Below are positions 1,339 to 62,192 of a stretch of 64,000 bases of DNA, piece after piece; positions within the stretch are counted from its first letter, which is position 1, and every line of letters begins with the position of its first letter. The translations under genes and the position numbers were made by a program. This stretch comes from Myxococcales bacterium (GTDB taxonomy: Bacteria; Myxococcota_A; UBA9160; SMWR01). The DNA lies in NCBI GenBank assembly GCA_022561775.1, contig JADFQO010000009.1, forward strand, positions 1 through 64,000. The letters are read 5' to 3'. Under the pieces are notes generated by a model that was given only the letters and a program-made list of their open reading frames with translations, made no database searches and was not told the DNA's origin.

Positions 1339-1546
1339 GATCGAAAGGCCTGAAGGATCTCGACGAGTTGATCTGGCAACGACTCGTTCTCCTTCGGCAG
1401 AAAAGCAGCTGTCTGGCTACGGCGACTCGAGCCAGCGGCGGGTCTCTCGCCGACAGACCCGTAAAGGAATGAGTGGCGGAATTCGCAGCTGCGCGCTGTC
1501 GGACTCGACTGCCATCAGACCTGCCGAGGAGAGGCGATCCGCCGGG

Positions 1547-1605
1547 GCGAATCCTTCGGATTCGCTTGCGTCGTCGGCCGACCCGAAACCCGGGTCGGCC
1601 TGCTA
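1547..1605 (-). repeat. Stop-codon-bearing palindromic repeat, copy 1
   Basis: Read on the minus strand, this starts with the TAG that ends the 1603-2001 gene. It continues with a 9-bp stem (GGCCGACCC / GGGTCGGCC), then CGACGACGC, then a second palindrome GCGAATCC-GAA-GGATTCGC. The module order matches the repeats near 6.2 kb, 39.6 kb, 55.9 kb and 61.6 kb. The hairpins could act as a terminator or transcript stabiliser. Sequence and order are seen directly; function is inferred. Confidence 0.8.
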
Positions 1606-2001
1606 GTAGTCGCCCGGAGGCTGGCCGAGCGGCCGTCTGAACGTCTCGTCGAAGGGCTCGGTCCAGAGCAGCGTGACGACGTCCTCGCTCCAACCGCTTC
1701 CCATTGTGAGCGGATAGAAGACGAAAAACGGCAGACCGGCCACGAGACGTGCGAAGTAGAGCGGGCGAATGATCGCGGCGTCGGCAATCTTCTCGGTCAT
1801 GCCGTTGGATTCAGACGCGGTCTCGGTCTCTTCCTCCAGTTCTTCCTCGACGTAGGGCTCGGGCTCCATTTCATCGACCTGGACGGGCACCTCGACGTAG
1901 GGCTCGGGCTCCATTTCATCGGCCTGGACGGGCAGTGCGAGCAATAGCAAGGCTGCGACCGCCCCGAACCACGGCAGGGAGCGGTGAGTGCGGCGAATCA
2001 T
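1603..2001 (-). CDS. Exported acidic protein with internal 15-residue duplication
   Basis: 132 residues, no family recognised. Residues 1-27 form a signal peptide ending in PVQA. A 15-residue unit containing DEMEPEPYVE is present twice in tandem (about 25-54), encoded by a near-identical 45-bp DNA duplication. A Glu-rich stretch follows, then a hydrophobic segment (about 72-103) that could be a membrane anchor. The stop codon is the first three bases of a palindromic repeat. It is probably a periplasmic or membrane-associated protein; no function can be assigned. Confidence 0.7.
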   Translation of the reverse strand: MIRRTHRSLPWFGAVAALLLLALPVQADEMEPEPYVEVPVQVDEMEPEPYVEEELEEETETASESNGMTEKIADAAIIRPLYFARLVAGLPFFVFYPLTMGSGWSEDVVTLLWTEPFDETFRRPLGQPPGDY

Positions 2002-5197: not shown

Positions 5198-6223
5198 ATG
5201 TCGAAGACGGGACGACTGGTTGTTCTGCTGCTGGTGTCGGCGAGCCTTGCGGCCTGTGCGACGCCGCAACCCAAGATGGTGCGGTTCACGGAGTCGGTTC
5301 CCGACAAGAGCGCGCAGGACTTCGCAAACTGGCCGGTGGATCCGCTCAAGGCGGCGCGGCTGATGGAGCGTGCCGAGTACGAGGTCCTCAGCATGGAAGC
5401 CGCGGGCTCCGGGACGACGCGGCCCGAGAAGGGCGAATTCCTCTTTCCCAAAACCGGCGATCGATTCAGCGTCAAGGGAAAACTGGTTCCGCGTGCTCTC
5501 GACGGGTTCAACAACTCGCCGCGCAAGGAGCTCGCCGCTTGGAGGTTGCAATCGCTCTTCCTGGATCCGGTGGACTTCACCGTGCCCGCGACGGTCCTGC
5601 GCTGCGTGCCCCTCGAACGGTGGATGGAGCGCCACTCCGACGGAACCCCCGTCATCCTCGGAACGACGTGCATGCTCGCACAAGTCGCCATCTGGATGGA
5701 GGACGTCACCGTCCCCGACAACCTCTACGAAGAAGAGCGCTTTCTCAACGACGTCAACTACGCCTACCATCTGGCCAATTTCAACATCTTCGCCTACCTG
5801 ATCAATCTACGCGACAACCGCACGGGAAACGTGTTGGTCTCCAAGGACGACAGCAACCGCCGCGTATTCGCGGTGGACAACGGCGTCGCGTTCGGAACGA
5901 TCTGGTACAACTGGTTCTACCCGCCCACCTACTCGTGGCGACAGATCCGCGTTCCAGCGCTTCCGCGGAATTCCCTCGATCGCCTGCGAAGACTGCGGCG
6001 TGAGGATCTCGACTTCCTGATGGTGGTCAGTCAACTCGAGGCCGACTCGGACGGGATCCTGAAGACCGTCCAAGCGGGACCGCCGATCAATCCCGACGAA
6101 GGCGTGCGGCGCGAAGGCACGACGGTGCAGTTCGGACTGACCGCGGACGAAGTCGACGACATCTGGGAGCGCATCGAGTCGTTGATCAAGAGGGTGGACG
6201 CGGGCGAGATCGCGCTGTTCTAG
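5198..6223 (+). CDS. HipA/PI4K-like kinase-fold lipoprotein
   Basis: 341 residues with a lipoprotein signal (lipobox LAAC, Cys19), so anchored facing the periplasm. The body resembles bacterial HipA/PI3-4-kinase-like proteins. A KELAAWRLQ helix and VPATVLR strand precede a probable catalytic loop RDNRTGNVLVS (Asp206, Asn211) and a metal-binding AVDNGVAFG (Asp227), the equivalent of the kinase DFG. The N-lobe lysine may lie in SVKGKLVPR. An extracytoplasmic kinase-like enzyme is plausible, but activity is inferred from motifs only. GAGGGG precedes the ATG. Its TAG stop is the first triplet of the downstream 68-bp repeat array. Confidence 0.65.
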   Translation: MSKTGRLVVLLLVSASLAACATPQPKMVRFTESVPDKSAQDFANWPVDPLKAARLMERAEYEVLSMEAAGSGTTRPEKGEFLFPKTGDRFSVKGKLVPRALDGFNNSPRKELAAWRLQSLFLDPVDFTVPATVLRCVPLERWMERHSDGTPVILGTTCMLAQVAIWMEDVTVPDNLYEEERFLNDVNYAYHLANFNIFAYLINLRDNRTGNVLVSKDDSNRRVFAVDNGVAFGTIWYNWFYPPTYSWRQIRVPALPRNSLDRLRRLRREDLDFLMVVSQLEADSDGILKTVQAGPPINPDEGVRREGTTVQFGLTADEVDDIWERIESLIKRVDAGEIALF

Positions 6224-6423
6224 GAGCGCGACCCCAGAATGGGGTTGCGCGACGACGCGTAAGCTTTGGCCAAAGGCCAACGCGCAGCTAGGAGCGCGAC
6301 CCCAGAATGGGGTTGCGCGACGACGCGTAAGCTTTGGCCAAAGGCCAACGCGCAGCTAGGAGCGCGACCCCAGAATGGGGTTGCGCGACGACGCAAGCGA
6401 ATCCAAAGGATTCGCCAGCTAGC
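6221..6423 (+). repeat. Three-unit palindromic repeat array (68-bp period)
   Basis: Units start with TAGGAGCGCGACCCC at 6221, 6289 and 6357, spaced exactly 68 bp. Each has a first palindrome GACCCCA-GAA-TGGGGTT flanked by GCGC. Units 1 and 2 carry a second palindrome TTTGGCC-AAA-GGCCAA. Unit 3 instead carries GCGAATCC-AAA-GGATTCGC. Each unit ends in AGC before the next TAG. The array fills the gap between two convergent genes, and its first TAG is the stop codon of the kinase-like lipoprotein. Confidence 0.9.
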
Positions 6424-6460: not shown

Positions 6461-8089
6461 CTACCAGCGGCCGCAGCCGGCCGTCATGGCTTCGGCGGTC
6501 AGCGAAATCGGATACCGCTGCCGTAGCGCCTCGGCAACCTTCGGGTCGATGTATTCCGGATAGTGCGACGACATCAGCTCGCGCACCTTCTCGACTGCGC
6601 GCTCGTGGATCAGCTTCGATCCCTTCTCCTCCCACTCGGTGGTCGTCGAGCGATCCGCCATCTGGGGATACTGGTATTCGGTCTCCATGATGCTGAGCGT
6701 CTGGGGCTGGCCCAGGAAGTGGCCGGGCCCTCCGCAACAGACCTCCTCGAGCACCTCGTAGGAGAGCGTCTCCTCGTTGACCTCGATCCCGCGAACGGCG
6801 CGCTGCACCGAGCCGAGCATGTCGCTGTCGATGACGAGTGCCTCGAACGAATAGCCGATCAAGCTCGCGAGCATGCCCGCGGACTCGAAGATCATGTTTG
6901 CACCGGCCATTCCCGCGAGCACGGTCGTGATGCCCTTCTCGTAGCCCGCCTGGTTGTCGGGGAATTTGGAATCGGACATACCCGCCGCGACGCCGCTCGG
7001 CAGGTCGTAGAAATTCGTGAGCTGAGCCGAAGCCGCGTTGAGGACGGCCTCCTCGCCGCCGCCACCCGAGAACGCCCCGGTCCGCAGATCCGACACGAAC
7101 GGCCAGTTGCTAAAGATCATCGGATGGCCCGGCACGGTCAGGTTGACCAGCGCAAGGCCCGCGAGCGCCTCCGCCACGGTCTGCACGAGGGTTCCGGCCA
7201 GCGCCGCGGGCGAGGTCGCACCCGCCTGCGCGGCGATGATCATGTTGACCGGCATGCCGTAGCGCGCGCACTCCATCGACACCATGCCGTTGTCTTCGCC
7301 GTAGCGCAGCGGCGGAACGATCGAGCAGGTATTCGCGGTGCAGAACGGCCGCTCGCGGAAGCGCCCCTCGCCGCCGAGGATCGTGTCGAACATCGCGACA
7401 CCCTCCTTCACGTGCTCCGAGAGATTGAAGCCCGAGAAGATGTGCTTCTGGGTTCCCGCCGCGCACGCGAACGCCACGCTCATATCGAACTCGAAGAGGT
7501 CCTCGATATCGGTGGCGACGACGGTCCGCGAGAACCAGTGGATATTGCTGAGTTGGTCGACCAAGCGCGCAAAATCATAGAGATCGTTGAGTGTCGAAGG
7601 TCGATAGGAGCGTTTTTCGACATCGAGCACCCGCACCGCCATGCCCGCGGTACCGAAGTGCGTGCGGGATTCCGAGATATGCAGGTCGTGCTTCGGATCG
7701 CGACCGAAGAGCGTGAAATTTCGACCCGCTCCGGCGACGATGTCCTCGATGAGTGCGCGGGGGAAACACAGTCGATCGTGCTCGTTCATCCAGCAGCCCT
7801 TGGCGAGCGCGATCTCGCGAAAGGCCGGAAACGCATCACCCATTCCGATGTTCTCGAGCACGTCGAGAGCGCGCTCGTGGATCCGCTGGATTTCCCGGTC
7901 CGTGAGCGGCCGATAAGCTCCGCCGATCAGTCCAGCGCGAACCGCGCCCTCTTTCGGTCCCCCGGCGCGCTGCGGGCCGCGCGCCCACCACTCGAACGGC
8001 GCTTTGCACGAGGCGTTTCTGTACCCGATACCCGTTCGCTCATTTCGATCTCCTCGCGGCGTGATCGCTGCGCTGCTAACGACCATCCA
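6461..8089 (-). CDS. MttB-family (non-pyrrolysine) methyltransferase, N-terminus frameshifted
   Basis: Trimethylamine methyltransferase family, which moves a methyl group from a quaternary or tertiary amine to a corrinoid protein. The domain runs from GLIGGAYRPLTDREIQRIH (near 7928) to the C-terminus, with PVNMIIAAQAGATSP, FSNWPFVSDLRTGAFS and AEAMTAGCGRW. There is no internal TAG, so it is not a Pyl enzyme; glycine-betaine-type members are the closest concept. The uninterrupted frame has an ATG at 8089. However, the expected N-terminus (RRSSGGRAARS) is in another frame, starting at ATG 8043 behind a GAGGAGATCGAA ribosome site, and stops at 7927. A single indel near 7930-7990 would join them. 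No corrinoid protein gene is adjacent. Confidence 0.85.
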   Translation of the reverse strand, partial: WMVVSSAAITPRGDRNERTGIGYRNASCKAPFEWWARGPQRAGGPKEGAVRAGLIGGAYRPLTDREIQRIHERALDVLENIGMGDAFPAFREIALAKGCWMNEHDRLCFPRALIEDIVAGAGRNFTLFGRDPKHDLHISESRTHFGTAGMAVRVLDVEKRSYRPSTLNDLYDFARLVDQLSNIHWFSRTVVATDIEDLFEFDMSVAFACAAGTQKHIFSGFNLSEHVKEGVAMFDTILGGEGRFRERPFCTANTCSIVPPLRYGEDNGMVSMECARYGMPVNMIIAAQAGATSPAALAGTLVQTVAEALAGLALVNLTVPGHPMIFSNWPFVSDLRTGAFSGGGGEEAVLNAASAQLTNFYDLPSGVAAGMSDSKFPDNQAGYEKGITTVLAGMAGANMIFESAGMLASLIGYSFEALVIDSDMLGSVQRAVRGIEVNEETLSYEVLEEVCCGGPGHFLGQPQTLSIMETEYQYPQMADRSTTTEWEEKGSKLIHERAVEKVRELMSSHYPEYIDPKVAEALRQRYPISLTAEAMTAGCGRW

Positions 8090-8098
8090 GGGCGCAGG

Positions 8099-8169
8099 GC
8101 GCCTCGTGAGGGAATGGTAAGCCGAATCGACTCTGGGCGCCTCGTGAGGGAATGGTGAGCCGAATCGAC
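8099..8169. repeat. Short tandem duplication, 38-bp period
   Basis: GCGCCTCGTGAGGGAATGGT plus AAGCCGAATCGAC at 8099-8131 recurs, with one base changed, at 8137-8169. It lies just upstream of the probable methyltransferase start and could affect its promoter or ribosome site. No known repeat family was recognised. Confidence 0.7.
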
Positions 8170-9665: not shown

Positions 9666-9923
9666 CTCTCATTTGGCCACCGCCTCGGGGGTCCTGCTCG
9701 ACCGCTACCGGGGGCCGGGTCGCATGTTTATAGCGAGCCCAGGGGATCGATACCGCGGGAACACCCGAGAAGAAACGCTAGATGGACACAATTGTCGCAA
9801 TTGCCGCCTAGCGGACCCGGGCGGGCTTGGTACCCTGCCGTCCTTGTCGGCCCCAAACACCGCGTCGGCGATCGGCTGCTCGCCTTCGAGAACGACCCCT
9901 GAAGCGAGCTGTAGAAGCGTAAG

Positions 9924-39583: not shown

Positions 39584-39621
39584 CGCGACGCCGCAAGCGA
39601 ATCCGAAGGATTCGCCCGCTA
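39584..39621 (+). repeat. Stop-codon-bearing palindromic repeat, partial copy
   Basis: CGCGACGCCGC followed by the palindrome GCGAATCC-GAA-GGATTCGC and CCGCTAG. The terminal CTA is the TAG stop of the convergent LptF-LptG gene. Only the second module is present; the first GACCC-type hairpin is missing. Same family as copies at 1.6, 6.2, 55.9 and 61.6 kb. Confidence 0.8.
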
Positions 39622-41973
39622 GAGTCGACGCCAGAGTCGTATGCCAAAGAAAGCGGCTACCGCCAGGAAGAGGACAACCGGCCCCCATCCGCCGATGACC
39701 GGAGGCACGGCTCCGCCGTACCCCAGTGATCGGGATACTCCCGTCAACAGGATGTAACTGATCCCGACCACGACGCTCAGCAGCAGCGTCTGTGCGGGAC
39801 CGGGAAATGGCGGGCCCCCTACCGCAAAAAAGAGCAGCAGCGCCGGGAGCACGATGCAGGCCAGGGGCTGGGCGAGCTTGACGTGGTAGTCGACCCGCAG
39901 GGGTCTGGGATCCACATTGTCGTTCTCCGCTTCTTCAATCAAGCCGATCAGATCCCCGACGCTGAGGTGCATCGTGTCGACTTCTGCGGGAAGCTCCTCG
40001 CCCAGGTATGCAAAATTGGGTGCGGGCATCACGCGCGCCTTCCCTTCGGAAACGTCGATTCGAACCGGATCCGTCAACAGCCACCAGCCGTTTCCGACGT
40101 GACGCGCCGCACTGGCATCGATTCGCATCACCGGCAGTCGATCTTCGCCAATCTCGTAGATCGATAGACCCCACGCCAATCCGCGATCGGGGTCGAAACG
40201 CTCCGCCTCGAGAATCTTGCTTCCCAACCGATACCAGACGGCGTTTCTGCGCCGCTCTTCTTGTTGTCGACCGTACCCGCCCTTGATTTCGGATCGTTTG
40301 AGTTCATCCGCGAGAGCATTCGCACGCGGCACCAGCACGTTATTGAGGATCGCGTCAGCCGGAACGACCATGGCCGAAATGAAAAGCACCGGAAGCAAAG
40401 CGCTCGGAGCAGGAATGCCGCAGGCTCGCATGCCGATCAGCTCTCCTTCGACAGCGAGCAGGCTGACGGTCAGTGCCGTAGCGACCAGAAGAGACATCGG
40501 GATCACTCGCGAAGCCAGCAATACCACTCGCGCGCTGTAGAAATGCAGGACTTCCAGTCCGGTCGCGTGGTACCGGCTGAACCACGAGAGCCGCTCCATG
40601 ATGTCGATCAGCAGGTATGCGACCAGCAGGATCGAGAAGGAAAGCAGCGCCAGGTGGATGAATCGGCCAGCGATGTAACGCGGCAGTGGATAGCGTCGGG
40701 GGCGCTGCTCACGGACCTTCTGGTTCGCCAATCGGCTGGTTCGATGCTGCGGCCGATCGAAGGAGTGGCCGAGAACCCCCCCCCGCCGTGCTTTCACGAT
40801 CAGCACAGCAGCGAGCAGCGACAGCGTCGCGTTGGGCAACCACACAGCTGCCACGACGCCGATCAGCTCGCTCTGGGCCAACCCCTCCCCTAATTGGATC
40901 AGACCGTAGTAGGAAATCGTGCACAGCAGGCCGAGCACGCCGCCCGCAGCTCTGGAGAAGTTGGTTCGGACCAGAAAGAGGGGAACAGCGAGAACGCCAA
41001 ATAATAGTGTCGCTAACGGCATCGCGAATCGGCGGTGGAATTCGATCTCTGCCCTCGAGAGCTGTTGCGTGGAACTGGGCACGAAGGTGCTCGCGCGCTC
41101 CGAGAGCTCCGCGAGTGAAAGCCCGGAAAGCTTGTCCTCGACGGTGCGCAGGATTTCACCGCTCTCGGGCAGGCGCGTCGTGAGTTCCTCGAACGTGAGT
41201 GTCTTCGGTCCGTCTTTCGCGGACAGGACGACTCTCCCTTCTTGAAGTGAGATCTCCGTGACGCCATCTTCTCTCGTATCAATCCGACCGGTACGAGCGA
41301 AGACCGTCTGACCGATGTCGGGCAGCCAGAGCAAGATCCCCTTCAAACGGTCGCCCCGCGCGTTGACCTCCCGCGCTTCTAGTCGCCAGTCGCCAAAGCG
41401 GGTCACGACACCCTGCTGAATCTGCGACCAGGGTTTTTCGAGTGAAATCGTTTCGAACACCCGATCGAGGGCGCGACTGGTCCACGGCGCTATGGACAGC
41501 GAGAGACCGACGGACACCAGGGTCATTGCGCTCGCGAACGCGACGAAGGGCCACACCAACCGCACGGCCGTGACACCCGAGGCCTCGAGGGCGAGGATCT
41601 CGTGATCGGCGCCCATCCGGCCGAGCGCCACCAGACAACCCATCAAAACTGCGAACGGAAGCATTAGCGTCGCGGTCGGAACCGCCTGATAAATGGCGAT
41701 CAGGCTGACGGTTCCGCCGCTCAGCCCACGGTTGACGAAGAGATCCGAGAGCGCGAGCAGATTCTGGGTAAGTACGACCGTCGTAAGGCCGAAGAGAGCG
41801 AAAAGCGTAGGAGTGAGGGCCTCTTTGGCGACGAGCCGATACAGGGTCAACCCCGGACGGCGGTGAATCGGCGCAGCAGGCTCCACGCGGCGTCCATCTG
41901 GAGAAGTCGCCCGCGGGAGGGTGCCGGCTTTTGCGGCCGACAGACCTGGACTACAGTTCGGTCTCTCCCCCAT
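39619..41973 (-). CDS. LptF-LptG fusion, LPS export permease
   Basis: 784 residues holding two complete YjgP/YjgQ domains. The first (about 40-400) has LTLYRLVAKEALTPTLFAL, then MLPFAVLMGCLVALGRMGADHE, the periplasmic domain, and FHRRFAMPLATLLFGVLAVPL. The second (about 425-784) starts LPRYIAGRFIHLALLSFSI, then SLLAVEGELIGMRACGI, and ends IGGWGPVVLFLAVAAFF. LptF and LptG are normally separate partners of LptB2FG; here one chain should supply both. The linker is basic (SFDRPQHRTSRLANQ). Start may be shorter; its TAG stop lies in a repeat. Confidence 0.88.
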   Translation of the reverse strand: MGERPNCSPGLSAAKAGTLPRATSPDGRRVEPAAPIHRRPGLTLYRLVAKEALTPTLFALFGLTTVVLTQNLLALSDLFVNRGLSGGTVSLIAIYQAVPTATLMLPFAVLMGCLVALGRMGADHEILALEASGVTAVRLVWPFVAFASAMTLVSVGLSLSIAPWTSRALDRVFETISLEKPWSQIQQGVVTRFGDWRLEAREVNARGDRLKGILLWLPDIGQTVFARTGRIDTREDGVTEISLQEGRVVLSAKDGPKTLTFEELTTRLPESGEILRTVEDKLSGLSLAELSERASTFVPSSTQQLSRAEIEFHRRFAMPLATLLFGVLAVPLFLVRTNFSRAAGGVLGLLCTISYYGLIQLGEGLAQSELIGVVAAVWLPNATLSLLAAVLIVKARRGGVLGHSFDRPQHRTSRLANQKVREQRPRRYPLPRYIAGRFIHLALLSFSILLVAYLLIDIMERLSWFSRYHATGLEVLHFYSARVVLLASRVIPMSLLVATALTVSLLAVEGELIGMRACGIPAPSALLPVLFISAMVVPADAILNNVLVPRANALADELKRSEIKGGYGRQQEERRRNAVWYRLGSKILEAERFDPDRGLAWGLSIYEIGEDRLPVMRIDASAARHVGNGWWLLTDPVRIDVSEGKARVMPAPNFAYLGEELPAEVDTMHLSVGDLIGLIEEAENDNVDPRPLRVDYHVKLAQPLACIVLPALLLFFAVGGPPFPGPAQTLLLSVVVGISYILLTGVSRSLGYGGAVPPVIGGWGPVVLFLAVAAFFGIRLWRRL

Positions 41974-54449: not shown

Positions 54450-55847
54450 TTGCCGCCGAACCCCACCGAAAGGCGACTCTCCAGCGCAAAGAAGGCGGTC
54501 TACGCACTCGGAGACCACACCGTGAACCTCGTGCTGTCCGCCATCGCCCTGCTCTACTTCAAGTTCCTGATGGAATACGGCGGGCTGAGTCCGTTTCTGG
54601 CGGGTCTCGTGATTTGGGTCGCCCGCATCGTCGACGCGTTTACAGATCCAGGAATGGGGCGACTCTCGGACATGACGCGTTGGCGCGCCGGGCGAAGGCG
54701 CCCCTACTTCTTGATCGGAGCCCTGCCCTTCGGGCTCTTCTTTGCGCTGATGTGGTTGAGTGTTCCGTTCGAGTCGCAATCGGCGAGATTTGTCTACTAC
54801 TCATTGACATACGTCTGCGTGAGCCTCGCGATGACATGCATCTCCGTTCCCTATCTCGCGCTGATACCGGAGATGGCGACGGAATACGACGAGCGAACCT
54901 CCTTGAACACGTTTCGCTCGGTGGCTGCGGTGATGGGAACCTTGGTCGCGGTGGGAATGAAGCCCATCGCCGACGCGATTGGAGGCGACTCGGCGGCCTG
55001 GGCGTACACGGCGGCCGTGACCGCTGTGTGGCTGGTCGTTCCATGGTTCGCGGTATACGCGGTGAGTTTTGAACGACCGGGCTACGACAACAGCGCACCA
55101 CTGGGATTTCTCGAGGGGATGCGAGCACTCGCCGCGCATCGCGCCTATCGGATACTCTCGATGCTCTACATCCTGGCGCGCATCGCGGTCGATCTGATCG
55201 GCGCGATGCTCCTGCTCTACTTTGTCTATTGGATCGGGCGAGAAGAGGACTTCGCACCGACCATGCTCCTCTTTTTTGCGATGGTGATCCTGGCGCTTCC
55301 CGCTTGGCTCGTGGTCGCGAAAAAACAGGACAAGCGAACGCTCTTCATCGCAGGCGCAGCGTGGTGGAGTGTGATTCAAATCGCGCTGTTTCTGGGTGAT
55401 TCGAGTTGGCCGCGTTGGGTCCTGTTCGCGGTACCGTCACTCGCAGCTGTGGGTTACGCGGTCGCGGAGATGATGCCCTGGGCGATGCTCGGAGACGTGA
55501 TCGACGAGGATGAACTCGCGACTGGCGAACGGCGCGAGGGAATGTACGTTGGATTTTTCACCTTCCTCCGGAAGATCGGAGGCGCGACGGCGGTGCTCGC
55601 GATGGGATTGGTGCTGGAGCTTTCGGGTTTCGTCGGTGGCCTCGAACGAACCGAGCAGAACGAGCTGGCGTTGTTGTCGATCCGGACGATGACGTCGCTG
55701 GTTCCAATGGCGGTCCTGCTACTCGCGATCGCGGTCGCGACCCGGTATCCGCTGACCCGAGAAAACCACGCGAGAATCCTCAGCGCACTCGTGCTGCGAC
55801 GGCAGGAGGCCCGAGAGACGACGAACGCGGGGGGAGCTTCGCGCTAG
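54450..55847 (+). CDS. GPH-family sugar/cation symporter (MFS)
   Basis: 465 residues, 12 predicted helices. Family features: VYALGDHTVNLVLSAIALLY at the start, FTDPGMGRLSDMTRWRAGRRRP after helix 2, and MMPWAMLGDVIDEDELATGERREGM in the middle of the C-half. Such proteins co-transport sugars or other small molecules with a cation. I chose TTG 54450, eight bases after GAGGAG, over upstream ATG codons. Its TAG stop lies in a palindromic repeat shared with the convergent gene. Confidence 0.88.
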   Translation: MPPNPTERRLSSAKKAVYALGDHTVNLVLSAIALLYFKFLMEYGGLSPFLAGLVIWVARIVDAFTDPGMGRLSDMTRWRAGRRRPYFLIGALPFGLFFALMWLSVPFESQSARFVYYSLTYVCVSLAMTCISVPYLALIPEMATEYDERTSLNTFRSVAAVMGTLVAVGMKPIADAIGGDSAAWAYTAAVTAVWLVVPWFAVYAVSFERPGYDNSAPLGFLEGMRALAAHRAYRILSMLYILARIAVDLIGAMLLLYFVYWIGREEDFAPTMLLFFAMVILALPAWLVVAKKQDKRTLFIAGAAWWSVIQIALFLGDSSWPRWVLFAVPSLAAVGYAVAEMMPWAMLGDVIDEDELATGERREGMYVGFFTFLRKIGGATAVLAMGLVLELSGFVGGLERTEQNELALLSIRTMTSLVPMAVLLLAIAVATRYPLTRENHARILSALVLRRQEARETTNAGGASR

Positions 55848-55879
55848 CGTCGCGTGACCCATCCTGGGTCACGCTCCTA
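55845..55879. repeat. Palindromic repeat supplying stop codons to two convergent genes
   Basis: TAG-CGTC then stem GCGTGACCCA / TGGGTCACGC (loop TCC), then TCCTA. The leading TAG (55845-55847) ends the GPH transporter; the trailing CTA (55877-55879) is the TAG of the convergent hydrolase. It is a short one-palindrome form of the repeat family, and the stem is covariant with the copies at 6.2 and 61.6 kb. Confidence 0.85.
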
Positions 55880-57334
55880 CAGCGCTAGCGCAGCGGCACG
55901 CAGACCTTCCTCGACGAGCAGGCGGACACTCGGGTGAGCGCGGAATGTCATATGCCCGCCCTGATACCACTCGATGCGCGGGCGATCCCAGTGTTCCCAG
56001 AGTCGGACCGCCTGCCCGGACGACACGAGTCGATCGGCGACCGCGGCGAACAGGAATCGGCGCTCGAGGGGCAACCGGGGTTCGAGGGCGAGGGGAGACA
56101 CCACCCTCATGATTTCGGCCATGCGATCGGCGTCGAGATTTTCGGGCTCCCGATCACGAGTGGCGAACAGCAAACCGTGCCGAACCATCACACCCGGTAT
56201 ATCCACGAGGGGAATGCCCACAATTGCGCAGGCGAGATCGTCGTCGAGGGTGGACAACAATGCTGCGTTGTACCCCCCCAGTGAAAGGCCGAATACGCCG
56301 ATCTTGGATTCCGACTCGGCGCGAACCCAACCGAGAATCCGTCGGATGTCCCAGATCGCCTGCGCCTCGGCGTGCGCGCAGTCGAGTATGTCGCCGGCGA
56401 GAAAACCATCCCCGCTCCTACGGCCGATCTTGCGGGCACCGTGAAGCGGAAGAACCGGAAGGACGAGATTCAATCCGAGCCCGTGGTGGAGCCAATCCGG
56501 CGGGAACGCGAGCAGATCGACCCCCGCAGTACCCATCTGGTAGCCGTGAATACAGACCAACCAGGGCCGGTTGGCATCGCGGTGGCGCAATACCCAGGCG
56601 CGAGCGGTCCGATTGGCTTCGTAGGAAAGCCAGCGATCTCGCCCGGGTTCATCGGAATGGGGTTCGAAGCCGCTCTCGAAAATGAGCTGTTCGTAATCGA
56701 TCCCGCGAACACGCGCCGCACGCAGCGTCGGCGAAACCAGCGCTGGAGGCACGCTGTGGTAGCCCGCGGGCTTTTCGAGCCAACCTCTTTCTTCGAAGAG
56801 TTCCCGCGCGGCCGACATCTCGGCGTTGATACGCGCCACCTCACCTCGCCGGGGAGCGGGAAGAAATGGCAGCACCGACGCGAGCATCGCCTCGTCGGCG
56901 GCAACCTCTGCCGACAACCGGATCGCTGGGATCGGCGCGGGGACGCCATCGCTGGGAGGTTCCGCGAGCAGCGAGTGGGCGCCCACCGCCGTAAAACTCC
57001 AGGCCGAGAGGCCCATCAACAAAAATCCCGCCCAGAAGCCAATCGCGAAGAGCGCGGGCAGCGCGATGACCGCCCCGAGCAGACCGCCAAACGCGGCGTA
57101 GTGGGTGATTCGCCGATCGCCGGGCACGAGCAGCAGCGCGCCACCCGATACCAGCAGAAGACATCCCGGCAGTGCAGCGAGCAGCGTGAAGAAGATGCCG
57201 TGTCCCGGGGCGATCCACAGCCAGCTCAATCCGGACAGCAGGGGCACCCAGGCGGCTTTCGGGAAACGCGCTTGTTCGGGCAAGGAGATCCTCCATCTCG
57301 TGGGTCCGGCGACGCGAGCGACGAGTGGGCGCAT
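55877..57334 (-). CDS. Membrane-anchored alpha/beta hydrolase
   Basis: 485 residues. An N-terminal membrane region (about four helices, residues 30-130) precedes an alpha/beta-hydrolase domain: LVCIHGYQMG (oxyanion side), nucleophile GLSLGGYNAAL, and a late His in GGHMTFRAHPS. Probably an esterase or lipase on membrane-near substrates. The N-terminal extension is unusual for this fold. The stop codon is within a repeat. Confidence 0.8.
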   Translation of the reverse strand: MRPLVARVAGPTRWRISLPEQARFPKAAWVPLLSGLSWLWIAPGHGIFFTLLAALPGCLLLVSGGALLLVPGDRRITHYAAFGGLLGAVIALPALFAIGFWAGFLLMGLSAWSFTAVGAHSLLAEPPSDGVPAPIPAIRLSAEVAADEAMLASVLPFLPAPRRGEVARINAEMSAARELFEERGWLEKPAGYHSVPPALVSPTLRAARVRGIDYEQLIFESGFEPHSDEPGRDRWLSYEANRTARAWVLRHRDANRPWLVCIHGYQMGTAGVDLLAFPPDWLHHGLGLNLVLPVLPLHGARKIGRRSGDGFLAGDILDCAHAEAQAIWDIRRILGWVRAESESKIGVFGLSLGGYNAALLSTLDDDLACAIVGIPLVDIPGVMVRHGLLFATRDREPENLDADRMAEIMRVVSPLALEPRLPLERRFLFAAVADRLVSSGQAVRLWEHWDRPRIEWYQGGHMTFRAHPSVRLLVEEGLRAAALAL

Positions 57335-58802: not shown

Positions 58803-58934
58803 CTAGCCGCGAAGAGCGGCGTGCGAATCATACACGGGTGGATCGAGAATCGCCCGATCAGCAAAGCCCACGGCCCGACCCGCGACATGCGTCAAAAGTG
58901 ATACGATGCCCGCAGCCATTGCGAGGAATTTCAT
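58803..58934 (-). CDS. Possible small membrane protein
   Basis: 43 codons starting MKFLAMAAGIVSLLTHVAG and ending in a TAG at 58803. One hydrophobic helix. It lies in the promoter region between two divergent genes, without a clear ribosome site. Low support; it could be chance. Confidence 0.2.
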   Translation of the reverse strand: MKFLAMAAGIVSLLTHVAGRAVGFADRAILDPPVYDSHAALRG

Positions 58935-61582: not shown

Positions 61583-61718
61583 GCTAACGGGGGAAGTCTT
61601 CGACTTCCCTTTGCGGCGTCGCGCGACCCCAGCCTGGGGTCACGCTCCTAGCTGCGCGTTGGCCTCCGGCCAAAGCTTACGCGGCGTCGCGCGACCCCAG
61701 CCTGGGGTCACGCTCCTA
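61583..61718 (-). repeat. Two-unit palindromic repeat array (68-bp period)
   Basis: Read on the minus strand: unit 1 begins TAGGAGCGTGACCCC at 61718 (its TAG is the stop of the 61716-62192 gene), with stem GACCCCAG/CTGGGGTC and second palindrome TTTGGCC-GGA-GGCCAA. Unit 2 begins at 61650, 68 bp further on, and has second palindrome GGGAAGTC-GAA-GACTTCCC. The array lies between two convergent genes. Confidence 0.88.
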
Positions 61719-62192
61719 GGAGTCGCTGGCGGGGTGCGTTCGATAAAACTGGTCGACGAAATCCATGAAGTCGCGAAGGTGTGGGGGGCGTTTCTCTTGC
61801 CAGAAACGACGCATCACGTTTCGAGAGACGTCAGCCAGATAAGACGACTCCCAGGATTCCCACAAGTCCTCTTCAATCATCGAATTTCGATAGCTGTAGA
61901 AGACGCTCTCGAAATTTCCGAAGACCCGTTCCGCGTAGGCTTCGAATCGAACCCGCTCTTCCTGCGTAAGGTCATCGTAGTCCTCTTCGGCCTTGAGCAC
62001 GATGCGGCCCACACTCTCGTTGTCGCTCAGGCTTTCCGCAATCCGCAAGGTGGAATCGACCATATCCTGATGCATGCTCGATCGGACGGCCCGGGTGTTG
62101 TGCCGGATTTGAAGCGAGAGGTAGACGAGCGAAATCACCACCGCGATCGCGCCGATGAACTCGCCCAGGCTTCCCAATTCGCTAAGCGTCAC
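61716..62192 (-). CDS. Membrane-anchored hypothetical protein
   Basis: 158 residues from GTG 62192, with GAGGG seven bases upstream (the frame is open to 62303). One N-terminal membrane helix (GEFIGAIAVVISLVYLSLQI), then a helical acidic domain (VVLKAEEDYDDLTQEER-like; EDLWESWESSYLADV) and HLRDFMDFVDQFY. A common type in marine proteobacteria, function unknown. Stop codon is in the repeat array. Confidence 0.75.
   Translation of the reverse strand: MTLSELGSLGEFIGAIAVVISLVYLSLQIRHNTRAVRSSMHQDMVDSTLRIAESLSDNESVGRIVLKAEEDYDDLTQEERVRFEAYAERVFGNFESVFYSYRNSMIEEDLWESWESSYLADVSRNVMRRFWQEKRPPHLRDFMDFVDQFYRTHPASDS

Follow-up and report, generated by a model that had tools for sequence, protein, structure and literature searches.

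The termini of the GTAG-tagged REPs, which include the E. coli and Pseudomonas REPs as well as the SMAGs, often provide the TAG stop codon of flanking genes, and REPs are mostly located between unidirectional or convergent genes; the CGTC REPs are known to occur without a dedicated transposase (Di Nocera et al. 2013, PMC3733652). TnpA-REP cuts at CT beside a tagged hairpin, where the AG of the tag can select the CT (PMC8266576). The word CTAG is absent from PMC3733652 and a literature query with this word gave no match. Similar stop-codon-sharing repeats are known, but a double-ended CTAG kind without a consistent candidate transposase seems to be undescribed.

The present analysis concerns a repeat found in a 64-kb stretch of DNA (referred to here as the window), which is probably a REP-like, non-autonomous mobile element of two hairpins, bounded by CTAG at both ends, with insertion at CTAG and retention at the ends of genes. 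Like the GTAG REPs, it is a small, high-copy intergenic palindrome with a covarying stem showing complementary changes, an xTAG tag beside a stem-loop, tandem clusters, unidirectional or convergent placement and termini that serve as TAG stop codons. However, its tag is CTAG and is present at both ends, in place of the GTAG (GYAG/GTRG) by which that group is recognised; its usual unit consists of two unequal hairpins; a RAYT is not consistently present; and in this survey the element is limited to one order. With REPINs, or head-head REP dimers (BIMEs), it shares two hairpins with the tags outside, a short linker and the formation of arrays, but instead of two inverted copies of the same REP it contains different hairpins, of which hairpin 2 is of several types and hairpin 1 is often common within an array; the identity of its head and tail tags follows from CTAG being palindromic. 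The likeness to the CGTC REPs lies in the lack of a dedicated transposase and in a linker with CGACG (CGTCG on the other strand) adjoining hairpin 1, whereas AT-starting stems and CCA tails are not seen and the boundaries are CTAG rather than CGTC. Similar to IS200/IS605 and TnpA-REP (PMC8266576), a hairpin lies beside a short tag in which AG can select a CT cut site, CTAG containing both CT and AG, and there are no classical inverted repeats; however, no transposase of this family was found for the present elements. While Di Nocera et al. (2013, PMC3733652) had already described TAG stop supply and convergent placement in the GTAG-REPs, new are the CTAG at both ends, the evidence of insertion, the quantified stop preference, a probable one-stranded selection on hairpin 1 and the lack of a RAYT in several copy-rich genomes.

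Architecture and distribution of the element

The repeat unit (63-68 bp) consists of CTAG, GAG, hairpin 1, CGACGNCGC, AA, hairpin 2, CNG and CTAG, and copies occur singly or in arrays, in which the tandem units have CTAG in common. Hairpin 1 is approximately CGYGACCCC-agaat-GGGGTCGCG, and hairpin 2, which is unlike it in sequence, is of the GCGAATCC/GGATTCGC, the TTTGGCC/GGCCAA or a GGGAAGTC-like type. Among 96 heads, 66 carry CTAG as their outer tag, as do 60 of the 96 tails; GTAG is seen only in rare copies (viz. at 55.9 kb), and copies with CAAG or CCAG tags also occur. A second sub-family with CCAG tags and a period of about 55 bp (Table 1) differs in hairpin 1 (ACGGGACC/GGTCCCGT) while hairpin 2 is unchanged, and this pairing suggests that the modules recombine. 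No known RNA family in Rfam scored above the gathering score for the element.

The initial annotation had described a modular palindromic repeat with a swappable second hairpin at five loci of the window (1.6, 6.2, 39.6, 55.9 and 61.6 kb), four of them between convergent genes, with six stop codons overlapping the element. All of these loci and overlaps are present (Table 1), and the repeat extends genome-wide. The 8-mer TAGGAGCG occurs 8 times in the window against 1.3 expected, a count that overstates the element because two of the matches (at 7605 and 56413) are chance occurrences within genes; for the same reason, TAGGAGCG alone was rejected as a probe.

Table 1. Copies of the element, related sites and filled/empty comparisons (coordinates are those of the window unless a genome is named; G000 is the genome of the window)
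Feature	Location	Strand	Remarks
Single element	1539..1606	-	Head TAG (1603-1605) is stop of gene 1603-2001(-); tail degenerate
Array unit 1, TTTGGCC-type hairpin 2	6220..6287	+	Head CTAG 6220-6223 is stop of gene 5198-6223(+)
Array unit 2	6288..6355	+	Identical to unit 1
Array unit 3, GCGAATCC-type hairpin 2	6356..6422	+	Terminal CTAG 6419-6422; three tandem copies at this locus, period 68
Half element (linker, hairpin 2, CTAG)	39584..39622	+	Tail CTAG is stop of gene 39619-41850(-)
Half element (hairpin 1)	55834..55880	-	GTAG head is stop of gene 55877-57283(-); CTAG within it is stop of gene 54450-55847(+)
Unit 1, TTTGGCC-type hairpin 2	61652..61719	-	Head CTAG is stop of gene 61716-62192(-)
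Unit 2, GGGAAGTC-type hairpin 2	61584..61651	-	Tail TTAG; two tandem copies at this locus
Empty CTAG target site	9808..9811	.	Elements present here in G002 and G003
Filled site	G000 C26:17351		Empty in G001, TTAG
Filled site	G000 C40:59371		Empty in G002, CTAG
Filled site	G000 L047		Empty in G002 L139, CTAG stop
Filled site	G002 L125:1862		Empty in G000 L019, CTAG stop
Filled site	G001 L147:16401		Empty in G000 L012, CTAG
Second sub-family (CCAG)	G002 L130:3191-3337, L127:4105-4198, L124:2688-2827
Second sub-family (CCAG)	G000 C27:25965, 27027, 49106

The genome of the window (2.72-Mb, 60 contigs, 77% complete) gave 109 covariance-model matches at E<=0.1, some of which are half elements or overlapping reverse matches, corresponding to about 100 overall. 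The predicted conservation in close relatives was confirmed by 61, 124 and 49 matches in the three genus-mates searched (G001, G002 and G003). Other members of the order (G039, G161, G026 and G021) contain 56, 35, 22 and 12 matches, mostly CTAG-bounded relatives. Among 141 genomes drawn from the phylum, 8 had matches at E<=1e-4, all within the order and none outside it, as seen with a model that is tuned to the genus of the window and can miss distant forms.

The covariation of the stems, which had also been proposed, was upheld by 29 copies, in which 95.9% of the stem cells pair, 11 of 17 pairs show two-sided changes and none of 500 shuffles was as good; slid-stem controls were far below the real stems. 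On the head-first strand, the non-Watson-Crick pairs of hairpin 1 are G-T in 58 cells versus A-C in 15 (p=4e-7), and due to this excess hairpin 1 probably functions as one strand, either RNA or single-stranded DNA, with the head first. The strand and stem patterns could alternatively be due to strand-biased mutation or to template-switch correction of palindromes. For hairpin 2, the corresponding numbers at core positions are 9 versus 9, showing no strand bias; a first wobble count, which had pointed to the opposite strand as the one read in hairpin 2, was an artefact of a stem extended into the fixed internal loop and disappeared on core positions.

Filled and empty sites and the search for a mobilising enzyme

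If a copy or an array enters a single CTAG (or TTAG), then one CTAG should remain on each side, and since CTAG contains TAG, an insertion at a gene ending in C-TAG will keep the stop codon exactly, so that the element would come to lie between genes without damage. One example of this pattern is provided by the 6.2 kb locus, where G001, G002 and G003 read CTGTTCTAG followed directly by the flank, whereas the window reads CTGTTCTAG, the array, CTAG and the flank; the protein end LF* of this gene is conserved in the two relatives translated. In six further filled/empty comparisons (Table 1), the empty allele has a lone CTAG or TTAG. A stop codon coincides with about three of the resulting seven lone-YTAG empty sites. 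There are at least two exceptions (G002 L139:5664 and L144:10861), in which the empty allele lacks CTAG. The comparison of relatives shows insertion at CTAG with one CTAG left on each side, its direction (insertion rather than loss) being based on three relatives at 6.2 kb and mostly on single relatives elsewhere. Where such a comparison is possible, the stop codon is not supplied by the element but is already there in relatives without it, and the element preserves it. These sites provide clear empty-site evidence of a REP-like element entering a genome with the stop codon kept intact. Window position 58856 is empty and G001, G002 and G003 carry TTTGGCC-type elements there; the empty allele has no CTAG, and hence this may be a loss.

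With a target of its own at either end of every inserted copy, the element has a simple route to arrays, which may also change by tandem duplication. The same locus is often filled in two or three species with differing stems, hairpin-2 types and unit numbers. Adjacent units agree at 89% in their hairpin-1 segments, which are identical in 18 of 36 pairs, whereas random unit pairs agree at 70% and are almost never identical there; 6 of the 11 adjacent pairs that differ in hairpin-2 type still have an identical hairpin 1, a mosaic for which tandem duplication alone is not a sufficient explanation. In a four-unit array (G002 L118:883-1139), two types of hairpin 1 alternate, a pattern resembling the duplication of a two-unit block; at this locus G000 and G001 each have a single, different unit.

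By analogy with TnpA-REP and IS200/IS605, an enzyme acting in trans may recognise CTAG and the adjacent hairpin on single-stranded DNA and cut at CT|AG; as CTAG holds both CT and AG, cleavage of this kind at the two ends would produce exactly the filled and empty sites seen here. The initial annotation had suggested a search for a RAYT, but no Y1_Tnp (RAYT) gene was found in the genome of the window, in G001, G003 and G021, or in G039, which is 98% complete and has 56 element matches; as the assemblies are drafts, such an absence does not prove loss. Within the genus, only G002 yielded such a gene, for a 296-aa Y1 transposase-like protein (C46:81-968, L088), on a contig with no element among the matches listed. 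As its presence is inconsistent with copy number, a RAYT was rejected as the partner of the element. Due to the lack of a RAYT in copy-rich genomes despite recent insertion, the mover of RAYT-less REPs becomes testable in one genus.

Stop codons, convergent genes and alternative explanations

On four contigs (459 kb), for which genes were predicted by a simple codon-usage model, 16 of 32 clusters lie between convergent genes, which account for 60 of 395 junctions (p=2e-6), and in 22 of the 32 a terminal tag includes a stop codon. The element is carried by 24 of 68 CTAG stops, 2 of 59 other TAG stops and 2 of 272 TGA/TAA stops. Of the CTAG sites outside genes, 22 of 66 at stops versus 2 of 88 elsewhere are occupied (p=9e-8), and this difference is seen both in convergent gaps (14/26 at stops vs 0/7 at non-stop sites, p=0.013) and in tandem gaps (8/39 vs 1/50, p=0.009). 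The enrichment at TAG stops and convergent pairs foreseen in the initial annotation is therefore strong at genome scale, and neither copies scattered without stop association nor a lack of conservation, which would have spoken against it, was found. It had also been stated that the stop is the first triplet of the element; this is not always so, as the stop at 39.6 kb is in the tail CTAG, and of the 125 clusters in all fetched stretches from four genomes, 80 use a terminal stop (head, 45; tail, 24; both, 11; p=0.015 for the head bias, orthologous loci not being independent). A stop at either end is accounted for by the CTAG boundaries on both sides.

If CTAG is merely the target and intragenic CTAG is unavailable, then the remaining sites will be mostly at stops and the stop association will be a by-product. 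Consistent with this, insertion can happen at non-stop CTAG, as only about three of the seven lone-YTAG empty sites are at stops. However, CTAG sites between genes that are not stops are equally numerous (86 free) and yet hardly occupied, including in convergent and tandem gaps considered separately, and a further cause is needed (retention, or targeting of gene ends). This explanation is rather doubtful. It is again a less probable interpretation, to a similar degree, that the element is a functional RNA device at 3' ends (a U-less terminator, bidirectional insulator or mRNA stabiliser) under selection, with mobility secondary. Such a device would fit the placement at stop codons and in convergent pairs, the higher occupancy of CTAG stops in convergent (16/28) than in tandem (8/40) positions (p=0.002), the strong RNA folding (z -3.3 to -7.6), the bias towards G-U wobbles that hairpin 1 shows on the head-first strand and the retention of the element at orthologous loci though stems change. 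However, no U-tract (T-tract) follows either hairpin and a scan for intrinsic terminators over 44-64 kb stayed at the level of the shuffles, due to which the element was rejected as an intrinsic terminator; transcription termination by it is possible. Further, the head outnumbers the tail at the stop by a factor of only about two, sister species lack the element at the same gene end (6.2 kb) and hairpin 2 is without strand bias.

It is unlikely that the element represents a RAYT-independent class of mobile hairpins that belongs to one order of uncultured Deltaproteobacteria and is actively targeted to CTAG stops when it inserts; in this case gene ends might, for example, expose single-stranded CTAG during transcription, and the target itself would make insertion harmless. 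Least probable, and indeed quite improbable, is a classical MITE moved by a DDE transposase with YTAR (IS5-type) or TA (IS630-type) target duplication. The target of IS5 is YTAR, with which CTAG and TTAG are compatible, and the tetramer is present once in empty sites and on both sides in filled ones, although this is also explained by CT|AG cutting. However, there are no clear terminal inverted repeats (head GGAGCGYGACC versus tail complement CGGGCGAATCC, consensus ends compared by eye), DDE_Tnp_1 (PF01609) was not found in the eight genomes searched for this family, copy-rich ones included, and covarying hairpins at both sides are not characteristic of such ends. The interpretation that we favour, a REP-like mobile element inserting at CTAG, has against it the lack of a RAYT in copy-rich genomes, a tag that is CTAG and not GTAG, the two or more empty alleles without CTAG and the unbiased hairpin 2; under it, CTAG stops and the gaps between convergent genes are the main places where copies occur and, probably, persist.

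The window also contains two pairs of direct repeats, viz. two 45-bp copies (1845-1934, 98% identical) within gene 1603-2001(-) and two 35-bp copies (8097-8169, 97% identical) with a start-to-start spacing of 38 bp.
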